A DNA stretch of 64,000 nucleotides from Candidatus Hydrothermarchaeum profundi (GTDB taxonomy: Archaea > Hydrothermarchaeota > Hydrothermarchaeia > Hydrothermarchaeales > Hydrothermarchaeaceae): NCBI GenBank assembly GCA_002011125.2, contig MTMF02000009.1, positions 148,332-212,331 of the forward strand, read 5' to 3'. The position numbers and the translations under genes were made by a program. The first letter of the stretch is position 1. Every line of letters begins with the position of its first letter. Positions 42,221-48,335 of the stretch are shown here, one piece after another. The notes below the pieces were generated by a model. That model was given only the letters and a program-made list of their open reading frames with translations, had not been told where the DNA came from and made no database searches.

Positions 42221-44470
42221 CTATTTCCTTCCAAGTAGGGGTAGTAATTCTTTAATCTCTACTTTTTTCCTCACCATAATGACTGTTTTATTTGTTCTCT
42301 TTATGAATCTTTCAGGGAAAGCCCCCTTCACAAAATTTTTAATAAACGGCTGATTCGATGCACCTATTATAATGAGGTCATACTCCTTAGCCCTCTCTAC
42401 CAGGGCCCTAATCTTATTTTTTGTAAATTCAACTATAATATCCTCTTCGATTCCTTGAGATTGTTTGAGTTTCTCCAAATTTGCATATATTTTGTTTTTA
42501 TCCGCATCAATGCTAGCGACATGGAGATAGCAGACTGTTGAATTAAGAGTTTTGCACAAGTCTTTTGCAATTCTATTAGCGGTATATATGTGAGGGCCGC
42601 CAGCCGTGGGTACTAGTATCCTCTTGATATTGCTAACTTTAAAGCCTTGTTCAAACCTTACTACCGCGACATCACATGGAGCTTTGAAAAGAAGTTGATC
42701 AATCGTGCTCCCTAAGATATAATCCCTCTTGTAAGTTCTTCCCCTGAAACCAATTATAAGCATGTCTGGTTTTTCTTCCTCTATCGTGTTTAGTATTGCA
42801 TCTGGGATATTATGAGAAATCTTCAATACCTTATTCACAGGTATTTCCTCTGGTACCTTTAGTTTTTTTAACAGCTCCCGCCTCTTTTCAACGTATTTTT
42901 CTCCAGCAGATAGAGGCGTCTGCGCAGGTAATTTCATTATTGAAAGAATTACTATCTCTCCGTCTTTTGCTTTTGCTATTGTGCTCGCTAGAGATACTAG
43001 GTTTTCTGCAGTAGCAGGATTAGCCACAGAGACCATGATCTTATAGTGCTTTTCTTCTAGTGCTTTTTCCTGGAAAACTGTCTTGAACTCTTCTCCAAGT
43101 TTCTCTTTCCTTTTTTCCTTCGAATAAGAAACATAAACTATTGAACCGAGGGCTAGCCAGCCGATGCAAGCTGAAAGCGCTAGCATTCCATGCTCTAATT
43201 CTTTAATTAAAAAATAAGCGATTAGAACTTGAAGTATTATTGCAGTTAAAGGAACATACGGTACTAACGGCACTTTAAATACCCTTTTTACATTTGGTGC
43301 CTTATATCTGAGCATTATTAATGCCATATTGACCTGTATGAACAGCAATATGAACATTATATCGGTAGAGGCGGCAATCGCCTCTATAGGGAGAGCGAGA
43401 GCCATGAAAGCTATTATGATATATGTGAAGAAAATAGAGTAGTAGGGAGTCTTGTTGGTCTCATGAAGCTTACTCAGCCTTTTATCAAGCAGACCATCTC
43501 TTGCTAATGCAAAGCTTACCCTAGAGGAGGAGTATATAGTGGCATTCATTGCACTAGCAGTAGAAACAAGACCTGCGAATAAAAGGATAGCTGTTCCAAA
43601 AGGCATTATCTGATTTGCGGTTCTTATTAAACCGAGTTCAGCCAACCCCCCTAAGTACTCCCACGTTGGCATGCTTGTTACTACTGAACCTAAAACAGAA
43701 AAAGCCACAAGAATGTATATTACCACCGCTACCCATAGGGAGACAAAAATAGCCCGAGGGATATTCCTATTAGGATTCTTAGCTTCTTCACCACTTTGTA
43801 CAATAATCTCATACCCTTCAAAAGCTATATATGTTAGCCCCATTGCTGCTAAGACTCCTGTGATTCCCGTGGGGAAAAAGGAGGGATCCTCAAATGCCCC
43901 TACCCAATTAGGTCTAGAAATAGTCCTATATACACCAAACGCTATGAATAGCAGTAGGATGGAAACTTTAGAAAGAGTTATAAAAGACCCTACTCTCGCT
44001 GTCTCTTTTACTCCTTTATAATTAATGTAGATTAAGATAGAAATCGCAACAAACGTCGAAAATTTCACTAAAATTATTCTCGGAATAGGTACAATCCCTA
44101 CGAAAATCTCAGCGAAAAATGCTCCGAATGTTACAGCATATAGTGCACAGGCAACTGAGTGAGCAAACCAATCAACCCACCCTGCAAGAAAGCTATAAGA
44201 ATGGCCAAACGCCTCTCTTATCCACACATAGCCCCCACCTGCTCCGGGTATTGCCGAGGATAGCTCCGCATATGCTGACGCCGTTATGGTAGCGATTATT
44301 CCATTGAAGAAAAAAGCAAGAATCAAGGCAGGCCCAGCCAATCCGGCTGCTATGCCTGTTAAAGCAAAGACTCCAGCGCCAATCATCCCAGCGATTCCGA
44401 TCATTGTTATATCCAAAAGGCCGAGTTCCCTGCTTAGCTTTACTTTGACTTCTTGGTCAGAATCCTGCAT
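42221..44470 (-). CDS. APC-type amino acid permease fused to two UspA domains
   Basis: 749 residues. N-terminal 12-TM APC permease: LGLLDITMIGIAGMIGAGVFALTG (first helix with GAGVF), GPALILAFFFNGI, YAELSSAIPGAGGGYVW. From about 465 two universal-stress domains: YKIMVSVANPATAENLV...GFRGRTYKRDYILGST, and IKRILVPTAGGPHIYT...IIGASNQPFIKNFVKG. The first has G-x2-G-x9-G(S) of ATP binders. USP domains probably sense nucleotide or stress and gate the permease. Substrate unknown. Confidence 0.9.
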   Translation of the reverse strand: MQDSDQEVKVKLSRELGLLDITMIGIAGMIGAGVFALTGIAAGLAGPALILAFFFNGIIATITASAYAELSSAIPGAGGGYVWIREAFGHSYSFLAGWVDWFAHSVACALYAVTFGAFFAEIFVGIVPIPRIILVKFSTFVAISILIYINYKGVKETARVGSFITLSKVSILLLFIAFGVYRTISRPNWVGAFEDPSFFPTGITGVLAAMGLTYIAFEGYEIIVQSGEEAKNPNRNIPRAIFVSLWVAVVIYILVAFSVLGSVVTSMPTWEYLGGLAELGLIRTANQIMPFGTAILLFAGLVSTASAMNATIYSSSRVSFALARDGLLDKRLSKLHETNKTPYYSIFFTYIIIAFMALALPIEAIAASTDIMFILLFIQVNMALIMLRYKAPNVKRVFKVPLVPYVPLTAIILQVLIAYFLIKELEHGMLALSACIGWLALGSIVYVSYSKEKRKEKLGEEFKTVFQEKALEEKHYKIMVSVANPATAENLVSLASTIAKAKDGEIVILSIMKLPAQTPLSAGEKYVEKRRELLKKLKVPEEIPVNKVLKISHNIPDAILNTIEEEKPDMLIIGFRGRTYKRDYILGSTIDQLLFKAPCDVAVVRFEQGFKVSNIKRILVPTAGGPHIYTANRIAKDLCKTLNSTVCYLHVASIDADKNKIYANLEKLKQSQGIEEDIIVEFTKNKIRALVERAKEYDLIIIGASNQPFIKNFVKGAFPERFIKRTNKTVIMVRKKVEIKELLPLLGRK

Positions 44471-44766
44471 AATTAAGCGTTCATCACCATATATTTAGAA
44501 CTTTCCATAGTAACCATTGACTCGGTGCTTAAGCTATAACCTCTCTGATAATAAGTTAACAAAAATTTTCAACAATAATTTAGCGAATAGCAAATGTATA
44601 TATCGATCTTTTTGAATTTAATTTTAAAATATCTCAGGAAATATAAGACATTGTTGTATTTTTATACAATAAATTCGGCATATTAGTGTTATTTAGTTTT
44701 AACTTTTGTTTATTATTTGAATTTTAATCCAAAAAATATATATATCAGTAATTTATTTAAATTTAA
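44471..44766. promoter_or_regulatory. AT-rich intergenic promoter region
   Basis: No gene seen. Very AT-rich, with TATA-like runs such as AAAAAATATATATATC at 44,731-44,746, which lies about 25 bases before the structured RNA candidate, and others that may serve the divergent permease gene. Confidence 0.5.
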
Positions 44767-44847
44767 GTAGATGGCAAGGTAGGAGCGGTTTTCACCTCCT
44801 CCAAAACCCCCCTCATTTCTCCTACCCTTGCCAATACTCTTTTTTTA
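44767..44847 (+). ncRNA. candidate small structured RNA with anti-SD-like loop
   Basis: Outer stem: GGCAAGGTAGGAG at 44,773-44,785 pairs with CTCCTACCCTTGCC at 44,819-44,832 (one bulged C). Inner stem: GGTTTT 44,787-44,792 with AAAACC 44,803-44,808, leaving the ten-base loop CACCTCCTCC (44,793-44,802). The loop shares CACCTCCT with the 3' end of archaeal 16S rRNA. A TATA-like box lies upstream and a T run (44,840-44,846) follows, so it looks like a free-standing transcription unit. On the other strand the same DNA reads a strong SD and a ten-codon frame (MKTAPTLPST), so the strand must be tested. Confidence 0.5.
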
Positions 44848-45010: not shown

Positions 45011-45169
45011 ATGGTATATGGAAATAGTAGTTTCGGCAGTCCTAGAGAGATGCATAAAATTACTTGCTCTGACTGTGGCCAGGAAGCCGAAGTTCCTTTC
45101 AAGCCCGACGGTACAAGACCTGTCTATTGTAGGGACTGTTACACGAAGCGTAGGCCAAAGAGATATTAG
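45011..45169 (+). CDS. CxxC...CxxC zinc-ribbon microprotein
   Basis: 52 residues: basic/Gly-Ser lead, MHKITCSDCGQEAEVPFKP, then RPVYCRDCYTKRRPKRY. This is the CxxC-x17-CxxC small protein type often found in archaea and in Patescibacteria. Probably binds zinc and RNA. AGGTGAAATA precedes the ATG. Own promoter (TATATA upstream). No neighbours on the strand within reach. The 214 bases after it show no gene. Confidence 0.8.
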   Translation: MVYGNSSFGSPREMHKITCSDCGQEAEVPFKPDGTRPVYCRDCYTKRRPKRY

Positions 45170-45383
45170 AGGACGTATAGATAATCTCTGCTAATAAATT
45201 AGCGGAAGAATCTTATATCCTTTTTTTAATTTTTTTTCTCTATTTTTTACTAAATACCTCTAACGATCTTTAACAGATTAGCTTAGATACCCCGAGGAGA
45301 AGTTCGAGGAAAAGTCTGAGTAATTTCTCTTGCCGGAATCTTGCATTAGAAATTCTAGAAAATTAGAATAGAGGCTTTAATTT

Positions 45384-48335
45384 TTAATCACAAAGTTTAT
45401 CGATTGCTATGTAATCGGTGTAAACTTCAATTTCTCCCTCACAACATGCCTCGATGTGTACTTTCCCGGAGAAATATGGATTATCCCTGTCTTCATATCT
45501 TATAACTTCGTTTCCATTGATGAAGACTGCTATATTATTTTTGTTAGCTATTAGCTGAAGTGTATGCCATCCTTCACCAATCCTTGTATCTCTGGATACT
45601 AGACTCGGATGTCTTAGCTCGTTTCCAACTTTTATTGTCTTAGAAAGAGAGATATGCTCTTTCTGTAGATTAACAAAGTATCTACCATTCTCATTTTCCC
45701 TAAAGCCCAGATGTATGCTCCCTTTCGAGATATTAAACTTCAGCTTGATTGAAAAATCGCTGAAAATCTTGTGTAACTCGATGAATGCGTGTCCTCTACC
45801 AATAGCTATACCATCTTCTATTCCCCAGCCTCTTTCAACCCTCCAACTCCTAAATGTGGTGAAGTTATCCTCAAAGAGCATTCCACAGGTCTTCAGGTAG
45901 TATACGCATCCTATATCCTTATCCCACATATCAGTCGTCTTCGAGTCTCCATCATCGCAACATCCTTGGAAGAACTCTTCAACATATTTGCACTCTCCTC
46001 TTATACATGTAAAGAAGCCACATTCCTTTCTCCCAGAGCATCCCTCAACCTCTCCGTTAATAAACTCATACTCGCATCTTCTCGAGGTAAAATTATAAGA
46101 GTCCTTGGTGCACGGATTAAAATCATCGCAATTTATCTTATGAAATCTGCCATACTTATAGTATTTCTTTAAAAATTCGCTGAAATTCGCATCAAAGACT
46201 AGTGGTGGCTCAGTTGGCAGATGCTGTTCACCTCTCCATGGATAGAAGAAGTATCCTTTCACTTTCCCTAACGTTTCTTCAAAAAGAATACTCCATGCTT
46301 GCTCTATAACTTCTTCAACTGCTCTGCCCTTTTTAACTTCTTCAGCTAAAAATTGCTCAGGGATTCCCACTTCCGAGCCGAGAATTATACCTTTGGTTTT
46401 ATCTCTTTGATTCAGGATTTCAAGAAAGCTTAAAAAGTTTCTCACAAACCACCGGTAGTCCTCGTAACTTTTGGAAAATTCCGCATGCTTCGGATCAAAA
46501 AAGTAGGTGTTGTCGAAAATATCTGCCGAGACATAGTCATAGCCACTGAAATTCCAGAAGCTAAGATCACCTTCTGGTCCAATACCATACTTAATCCATG
46601 CGATCTCGCCTTTAGGATGAAGCACTTCTCCACGATAAACTTCTCTTATCTTTGGCAAAATCTCTCTTGCCCATTTTTTACTATGGTTCCAGTCAACAAA
46701 TAGATTCATTTCACACCATGGCGAAAACATATCTACTTTTTCTTCCTCAGCAAACTTCGCCGCTCTTATCACAAATTTCGTTGCTTCTTCGAGAAATTCC
46801 TCCTGATTATCAAATGGACCATGCTCGCCTTCTACTCCATGTGTGTTAAACTCTGGTGACTTGCCTTCTATCCAGTACTCTGGGTAGATCTGTAGTAAGA
46901 CTTTAAGTCCTGCTGCTTTGGCTTCTCTTATCCTAGCCCTAACGTCTTCTAACCTCGATCCTCTCCATTCGACCTTTTCTTCTGGCAGGATTTCCCCAGT
47001 ATCCCAATCAATTTCTATCCAGTACATTATGGCAACCCAGTTGGCTCCAATGTTCTTTGCAATTTTTATTCCTTCTTTATCGTGAGGATGAATAACAACT
47101 CCCCTTACCTCTGGTAGAGTAACTGTGTAATAGCTTTTGATAACATTCATAGGGCCATCGCCCTGTCTCCCTGCTATGATTCTATCCATATATCTATGCC
47201 CATCCCTCTCCCTTTCAATCTCAAATTGGGTTATAATATCCCCTGGCACCCATGACCAAAACGAGTATCCATCAACCTTTCCATAACTTTCCTCAAAAAT
47301 GATATTATATAGCTTCATTTTTGCTTTTTCCATTTCCTGCTCAGAGAGATTCCCATGACCCCAGAATTCTGTTCCTTTTTTTAACATTTCTTGGTTTGAT
47401 TCAGGCGGCATAATTTCAGGCCCAAAGATTATTCCCTCTGCCTGATATCTCTCTTTAAAATAGGTTGAGATGCTGAGAAGCCATCTAATTAGCTTTCTAA
47501 AATCTTGATAAGTCCTAACTCCCCCACTAAGAGGGCTACCTGTCGTAAAGACATCCGTAGACACATAGTCATAACCAGAGAAATTAAATCCACTAAAGTT
47601 ATAGGCAGACTTTGCGTCGAGAAAGTTGAGCTGGGCTGTCTCGGGGTTTAAATCTATCTTTTGCACCAACTTACCGGAGTATCTCTTCCTAACCTCTGAA
47701 ATTAGAGAATTAGCCCAATCAAAGGCGCTTATATCTTTAAAAACCAAATAAAGCTGTCCCGCAGAAATAGGAGTGAAGATTTCAACATCTTCCTGCTCAC
47801 ATTTCTCCGCCCAGGCTAATATAACTGGCTTTAAATTCTTTTTGACATTCTCTTGCGCATCCCTAGAAAGCCCTCTGAATTCCTGAGGATTCAATTCAAA
47901 TAAAAATGCGCCTTCCCTCTCTCCAGGGTACATTTTTTCTAAAGGTGTTCTAATTACAAACCAAACCTTTAATCCCCTCTCATGAGCCTTTCTTATCAGA
48001 GCCAATGCCTCAGATGAGTCTATCCCATATCTCGCAATATTCCCATCGGTATCGAGGAATATTTCTTGCGTAATAACTACGTAGTTTGCCCCAGCCTTGC
48101 GTGCCTTATCTATTGTTTCTACTTCCAGAGGGTTGAGTGCTAACGCTCTTATTTTGATTTCCTCATTCGGCTTTATTTCTTCGGTGCTCCCTATCTCTTC
48201 TCTAATACCCTCTACGCTCTCTATTTCTTGAATTTCTATGGGTCGTTCTTTTAAAGTAGGCTGCTCTTTCAGAAATATTCCAACCGAAAAGATTGTAATG
48301 AGAACTATGAAAATTAACAACTTCTTTTTCAACAT
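45384..48335 (-). CDS. large secreted protein: duplicated TIM-barrel-like glycosidase-type domain plus LamG-like domain
   Basis: 983 residues. N-terminal signal or anchor (LLIFIVLITIFSVGIFL). Two homologous halves (about 62-385 and 405-745): RALALNPLEVETIDKARKAGANYVVI against RGVVIHPHDKEGIKIAKNIGANWVAI; SGYDYVSTDVF against SGYDYVSADIF; GIIFGPEIMPPE against GIILGSEVGIPE; YGKVDGYSFWSW against LGKVKGYFFYPW. Then a Cys-rich segment (about 755-830) and a concanavalin/LamG or DUF1080-like domain (about 835-983). Acidic residues at the strand ends fit glycosidases of the GH-A type, but the substrate is unknown. Outside the cell or membrane-anchored. Confidence 0.65.
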   Translation of the reverse strand: MLKKKLLIFIVLITIFSVGIFLKEQPTLKERPIEIQEIESVEGIREEIGSTEEIKPNEEIKIRALALNPLEVETIDKARKAGANYVVITQEIFLDTDGNIARYGIDSSEALALIRKAHERGLKVWFVIRTPLEKMYPGEREGAFLFELNPQEFRGLSRDAQENVKKNLKPVILAWAEKCEQEDVEIFTPISAGQLYLVFKDISAFDWANSLISEVRKRYSGKLVQKIDLNPETAQLNFLDAKSAYNFSGFNFSGYDYVSTDVFTTGSPLSGGVRTYQDFRKLIRWLLSISTYFKERYQAEGIIFGPEIMPPESNQEMLKKGTEFWGHGNLSEQEMEKAKMKLYNIIFEESYGKVDGYSFWSWVPGDIITQFEIERERDGHRYMDRIIAGRQGDGPMNVIKSYYTVTLPEVRGVVIHPHDKEGIKIAKNIGANWVAIMYWIEIDWDTGEILPEEKVEWRGSRLEDVRARIREAKAAGLKVLLQIYPEYWIEGKSPEFNTHGVEGEHGPFDNQEEFLEEATKFVIRAAKFAEEEKVDMFSPWCEMNLFVDWNHSKKWAREILPKIREVYRGEVLHPKGEIAWIKYGIGPEGDLSFWNFSGYDYVSADIFDNTYFFDPKHAEFSKSYEDYRWFVRNFLSFLEILNQRDKTKGIILGSEVGIPEQFLAEEVKKGRAVEEVIEQAWSILFEETLGKVKGYFFYPWRGEQHLPTEPPLVFDANFSEFLKKYYKYGRFHKINCDDFNPCTKDSYNFTSRRCEYEFINGEVEGCSGRKECGFFTCIRGECKYVEEFFQGCCDDGDSKTTDMWDKDIGCVYYLKTCGMLFEDNFTTFRSWRVERGWGIEDGIAIGRGHAFIELHKIFSDFSIKLKFNISKGSIHLGFRENENGRYFVNLQKEHISLSKTIKVGNELRHPSLVSRDTRIGEGWHTLQLIANKNNIAVFINGNEVIRYEDRDNPYFSGKVHIEACCEGEIEVYTDYIAIDKLCD

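Follow-up and report, generated by a model that had tools for sequence, protein, structure and literature searches.

What is the hairpin at positions 44767-44847 of the window, the 64,000-nt stretch of archaeal DNA analysed here: is it the product of a free-standing small-RNA gene, and if so, what would its loop be for? The sequence (U)CACCUCC(U) is the 3′ tail of archaeal 16S rRNA, and the loop of this hairpin, hereafter RNA1, reads together with the preceding T as UCACCUCCU, the consensus form of that tail. The match rests on the archaeal consensus because the 16S 3′ end is missing from the assembly of this genome, where contig C8 stops about 740 nt into the only 16S gene found (locus L032). 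Folding against shuffled sequences gave the 81-nt stretch 44767-44847 an MFE of −25.1 kcal/mol and a z score of −5.29, equalled by 0 of 200 shuffles, and the loop motif is predicted to be 99% unpaired. The nested stems, ten-base loop, upstream A/T box and T run described in the first-pass annotation were all found in the sequence and fold; the asymmetric C-rich strand at 44809-44818 had not been mentioned there. The locus comprises:

44730-44743, plus strand: BRE/TATA element CAAAAAATATATAT, 11.1 bits, 42 nt before the stem
44767-44846, plus strand: RNA1, putative small RNA of about 80 nt (fold z −5.29; 43.7 bits by construction with covariance model R2)
44772-44785, plus strand: 5′ arm of the outer stem, TGGCAAGGTAGGAG (fold; covariation with paralogues RNA7, RNA9 and RNA12)
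44787-44792, plus strand: 5′ arm of the inner stem, GGTTTT (fold)
44793-44802, plus strand: exposed ten-base loop CACCTCCTCC (fold; unpaired motif common to RNA2-RNA7)
44803-44808, plus strand: 3′ arm of the inner stem, AAAACC (fold)
44809-44818, plus strand: unpaired, asymmetric C-rich strand CCCCTCATTT (fold)
44819-44833, plus strand: 3′ arm of the outer stem, CTCCTACCCTTGCCA, with a single bulged C (fold and covariation)
44840-44846, plus strand: T7, a likely archaeal terminator (sequence; T7 in RNA2 and RNA3 too)

Promoters were scored with a 14-base BRE/TATA matrix trained on 28 tRNA promoters of the same genome. The RNA1 score of 11.1 bits is reached at 0.005% of window positions, and the element lies at a tRNA-like distance that would place the transcription start at about 44766-44771; the best minus-strand score at RNA1 is about 5 bits. 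The earlier statement that this strand is free of genes for 540 bases upstream holds in essence, as only an implausible 70-aa ORF (44286-44498) was found there. Each neighbour has its own TATA-like box, scoring 6.4 bits about 36 nt before the start codon of the permease (42221-44470, minus strand) and 7.7 bits for the zinc-ribbon-like ORF that begins at 45012 on the plus strand. A role as the leader of the permease gene, raised in the first-pass annotation as an outcome that would count against it, is unlikely, because the RNA1 promoter and T run face away from the permease and the permease has its own box. An independent gene on the plus strand is the best reading of the RNA1 hairpin.

The zinc-ribbon-like ORF (45012-45170, plus strand) encodes a 52-aa protein with two CxxC pairs and no Pfam match, and relatives occur in one more distant genome besides several within the same order. 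Beyond it, at 45384-48335 on the minus strand, lies a predicted secreted protein of 983 aa that matches glycoside hydrolase family 113 and has a C-terminal domain resembling 3-keto-disaccharide hydrolases.

RNA1 is not alone. In the same genome, RNA2, RNA5 and RNA7 display the exact CACCUCC, accompanied by less certain copies, and three further members occur in other families of the same order. The members located were:

RNA2, same genome, C9:1,579,892 (L045): an intergenic site of the decamer with the RNA1 layout and a different stem
RNA3, genome G008: found with a pattern of the 16S-tail motif plus T7 in 23 genomes of the phylum
RNA4, genome G010: found with a looser pattern; TATA, clamped stem, exposed motif and T6
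RNA5, same genome as RNA1: found with R2
RNA6, genome G007: found with R2; TATA of 8.5 bits, 38 nt before the stem
RNA7, same genome as RNA1: encountered at a locus that had been examined for its tRNA
RNA8, same genome, C9:392450, plus strand (L236, 446-525): between two same-strand ORFs
RNA9, same genome, C9:495337, minus strand (L241, 3252-3338): 17-bp stem related to that of RNA1, TATA of 8.8 bits, T7

Model R2 was built from hand-trimmed seeds of RNA1-RNA4 and contains no promoter information; it recovers RNA3 poorly (18 bits). A TATA box, a clamped stem, the exposed motif and T7 are common to RNA2 and RNA3. The TATA of RNA2 scores 11.8 bits, 37 nt before a stem that keeps CAAGG/CCTTG while its flanking pairs differ from the RNA1-type stem, and the unpaired CACCTCCTCC is followed by a C run and the T7. 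The TATA of RNA5 is weak or displaced and scores between 2.0 and 6.9 bits according to the spacing permitted. RNA8, RNA9 and RNA12 carry a degenerate motif, and the membership of RNA8, RNA10 and RNA12 is less certain. The ORFs around RNA8 read by eye like gatD and gatE, and RNA8 could be a cis element between them. The loop of RNA9 lacks CACCUCC (CUCCCCUAUCCCCC...CCACCAACUCC) and may address a different target sequence. Two other hairpins of the same genome, with stems GCCTGGAGGAC and GCCTGTAAGACA (G000:C9:704569, plus strand, L251; C9:1347251, minus strand, L283), each lead into a C-rich 3′ tail (CCCCTCCCC...) and perhaps form a second class of C-rich small RNAs.

The relationship among some of these copies is visible in their stems. 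RNA1, RNA7, RNA9 and RNA12 have a common stem form, GGCAAAGGYARGA; in this set of four sequences, with stems hand-trimmed and the RNA1 bulge removed, 100% of the letter pairs form, 3 of 14 pairs are changed on both sides, and the covariation score is reached by 4 of 500 shuffles, while slid registers fail. Covariation, proposed as a check from the outset, is thus present among the paralogues with related stems. The stems of RNA3-RNA6 are unrelated in sequence, and homology across families therefore rests on layout. Since paralogues and relatives keep the promoter, the stem and the exposed CACCUCC, the proposal of a free-standing small-RNA gene with an exposed anti-Shine-Dalgarno (SD) loop is well supported; gene-like anatomy, strand, paralogy, stem covariation and predicted motif exposure can all be read from the DNA.

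Because the motif itself had served as the query for many members, more independent tests were made. Their values are exploratory because the thresholds were tuned between scans rather than fixed beforehand: a promoter at the right distance accompanied 4 of 7 CACCTCC sites lying in a stem of at least 10 bp and 7 of the 298 others (305 sites in the DNA analysed, p 3e-5); of 11 promoter-led hairpins from a scan blind to the motif, 2 contained CACCTCC where 0.019 were expected (P 1.7e-4); and with RNA1 and RNA2 excluded, motif-type loops occurred in 4 of 17 promoter-led and 6 of 141 promoter-less hairpins (p 0.013). Only RNA1, RNA2 and RNA9 combined an intergenic hairpin with a stem of at least 10 bp, a TATA of at least 7 bits and at least four T (1.56 Mb of the same genome), and their loops are all C-rich and G-poor. 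A reversed-sequence control of one layout scan gave 19 matches against 12 in the real sequence, which warns that the layout without the motif is not rare; we did not rely on this control because ORF masking differs on reversed DNA.

No convincing member was found in a 400-kb sample of genome G013. A site at locus L035 was rejected since it lies inside an ORF, and pattern scans that tolerated mismatches or a shorter T run were overwhelmed with matches at antisense SD sites and in coding repeats. Permease synteny led to loci in Archaeoglobales and methanogens, and the motif was missing upstream of the gene in these.

RNA1 is most likely a real small-RNA gene, one of a family present in several copies in a phylum of archaea that has been little sampled. 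We give a probability of roughly 0.6 to the fuller explanation that this family masks SD sites in trans and blocks translation initiation. Each gene would have its own TATA promoter and yield a transcript some 75-110 nt long, in which a clamping stem of 10-17 bp would hold a G-poor, C-rich single-stranded region open, with a U run at the end of several copies. In many copies the open region would present CACCUCC(U), the letters of the archaeal 16S 3′ tail, and could pair in trans with ribosome-binding sites of the GGAGGUG type; for the RNA1 loop, an SD sequence such as GGAGGTGA would be the partner. Such pairing would compete with the ribosome for these sites and thereby block initiation, and the bases flanking the motif in the loop may decide which mRNAs are chosen. 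Transcription, pairing in the cell, repression and target choice are the steps that we infer.

The predicted start regions are compatible with this. Computed pairing energies of the RNA1 loop average −13.2 kcal/mol there against −9.8 kcal/mol at internal positions, as is expected of an anti-SD sequence, in a comparison that is partly circular because the starts were chosen for SD strength. A complete GGAGGTG, in contrast, was found ahead of only 26 of 1239 predicted genes; this scarcity weighs against the explanation, and it makes competition across all genes less likely than the masking of selected strong sites. One candidate target is the start region TTTTGGAGGAGG at C9:1,561,246 (minus strand), with 12 letters complementary to RNA1.

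Several other explanations were weighed. A cis role, in which the hairpins would serve neighbouring genes as leaders, attenuators or terminators and their loops would be C-rich only incidentally, seems unlikely. Such a role would suit RNA3, whose end is about 20 nt upstream of a gene on the same strand, and the positions of RNA8 between same-strand ORFs and of RNA10 between convergent ORFs; but RNA1 has its own promoter and T run beside neighbours with boxes of their own, RNA2, RNA5 and RNA9 point towards the 3′ ends of opposite-strand genes, loops of 20-50 nt are unlike those of terminators, and CACCTCC is commoner in loops than its genome frequency. Also improbable is a decoy role, in which the RNAs would not pair with mRNA but capture proteins that recognise the 3′ end of 16S rRNA (Nob1, the maturation nuclease, with its partners, or else initiation factors) and thereby titrate the maturation of ribosomes or initiation. 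The whole UCACCUCCU is present in RNA1, RNA2, RNA3 and RNA5 while their stems vary freely, as a decoy of the tail might have it, but RNA4, RNA6, RNA7 and RNA10 depart from its exact nine letters, and the additional ACCUCC-type repeats in several family loops suit pairing with purine-rich mRNA better.

It is very unlikely that RNA1 is a fortuitous hairpin that happens to contain CACCTCCTCC. Taken by itself the decamer says little, as the 2.19-Mb genome contains 16 copies, mostly antisense inside ORFs, and 12 of the reversed control. The first searches also returned no relative, as BLAST of an 86-mer against 61 relatives recovered only itself and short chance-level matches, and the single-sequence covariance model R1 found none in 198 genomes (six weak matches were inspected and lack the family layout); one weak BLAST match in the same genome proved to be RNA2. 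Against chance stand the paralogues and relatives with their promoters, terminators and covariation; it is the joint occurrence of a promoter, a stem, the exposed motif and a terminator that exceeds chance. Least probable of all is a minus-strand RNA displaying GGAGGAGGUG as a decoy SD site that would bind the ribosome, since the reverse strand folds well too (z −3.4 and −4.7) but promoters at RNA1-RNA4 score 1 to 6 bits on the minus strand against 7 to 12 on the plus strand, and no T run follows the hairpin on the minus strand.

To our knowledge, few archaeal lineages have yielded regulatory RNAs, and a mechanism is known for very few of these. The RNA1 family is apparently undescribed so far: no paper describing it was found in a literature search that had most subscription journals outside its reach, and Rfam 15 returned no family at gathering score for RNA1, RNA7 or the RNA2 locus. 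Guide RNAs were set aside on the same Rfam result and because, by eye, no H/ACA or C/D boxes (ACA; C, D) are common to the aligned members. If the family is real, it can be recognised from DNA alone, and the recipe of a TATA box, a clamped stem, an exposed CACCUCC and often a U run could be applied to other archaea.

Masking of SD sites by the RNA1 family would place it in the class of anti-RBS small RNAs. As in that class, RNA1 has, judged by its sequence, its own promoter and terminator, and the anti-SD motif is accessible, with 76-100% of it predicted to be unpaired in eight members. The Methanosarcina mazei sRNA154 is an archaeal intergenic, trans-acting RNA in which an anti-RBS sequence in loop 2 is reported to mask glnA2; for sRNA41 the proposal is that it covers the RBSs of polycistronic mRNAs (review PMC5867862). 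The likeness lies in archaeal trans-acting RBS masking, which for the RNA1 family is proposed from sequence; compared by description, sRNA154 and sRNA41 are individual Methanosarcina RNAs, whereas the RNA1 family consists of dispersed short hairpins in another phylum.

Similar in design are the alpha-proteobacterial alpha-r14/NfeR1 and 'cuckoo' RNAs (RFM SmelA075, SmelA099), which have two to four consecutive hairpins, each with an anti-SD loop carrying the motif CCUCCUCCC, and several copies per genome; one of them, NfeR1, silences ntrB through anti-SD seeds that pair at the start region of that gene (PMC10746234, PMC3927594). There, as here, an unpaired anti-SD motif is kept while stems diverge and copies multiply within a genome. 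Unlike them, the RNA1 family has one clamped hairpin per RNA, loops with CACCUCCUCC or UCACCUCC variants in which the nonamer CCUCCUCCC is not the common element, the motif (U)CACCUCC(U), and archaeal TATA/BRE promoters; no sequence relation was found, and with another motif and a single hairpin its members do not belong to the cuckoo family. We tentatively suggest, at somewhat less than even odds, that an archaeal phylum independently evolved dispersed single-hairpin RNAs which display the 16S tail and compete with SD recognition at chosen mRNAs. If this is true, control of ribosome-binding sites by anti-SD loops would have arisen in archaea much as it did in alpha-proteobacteria.
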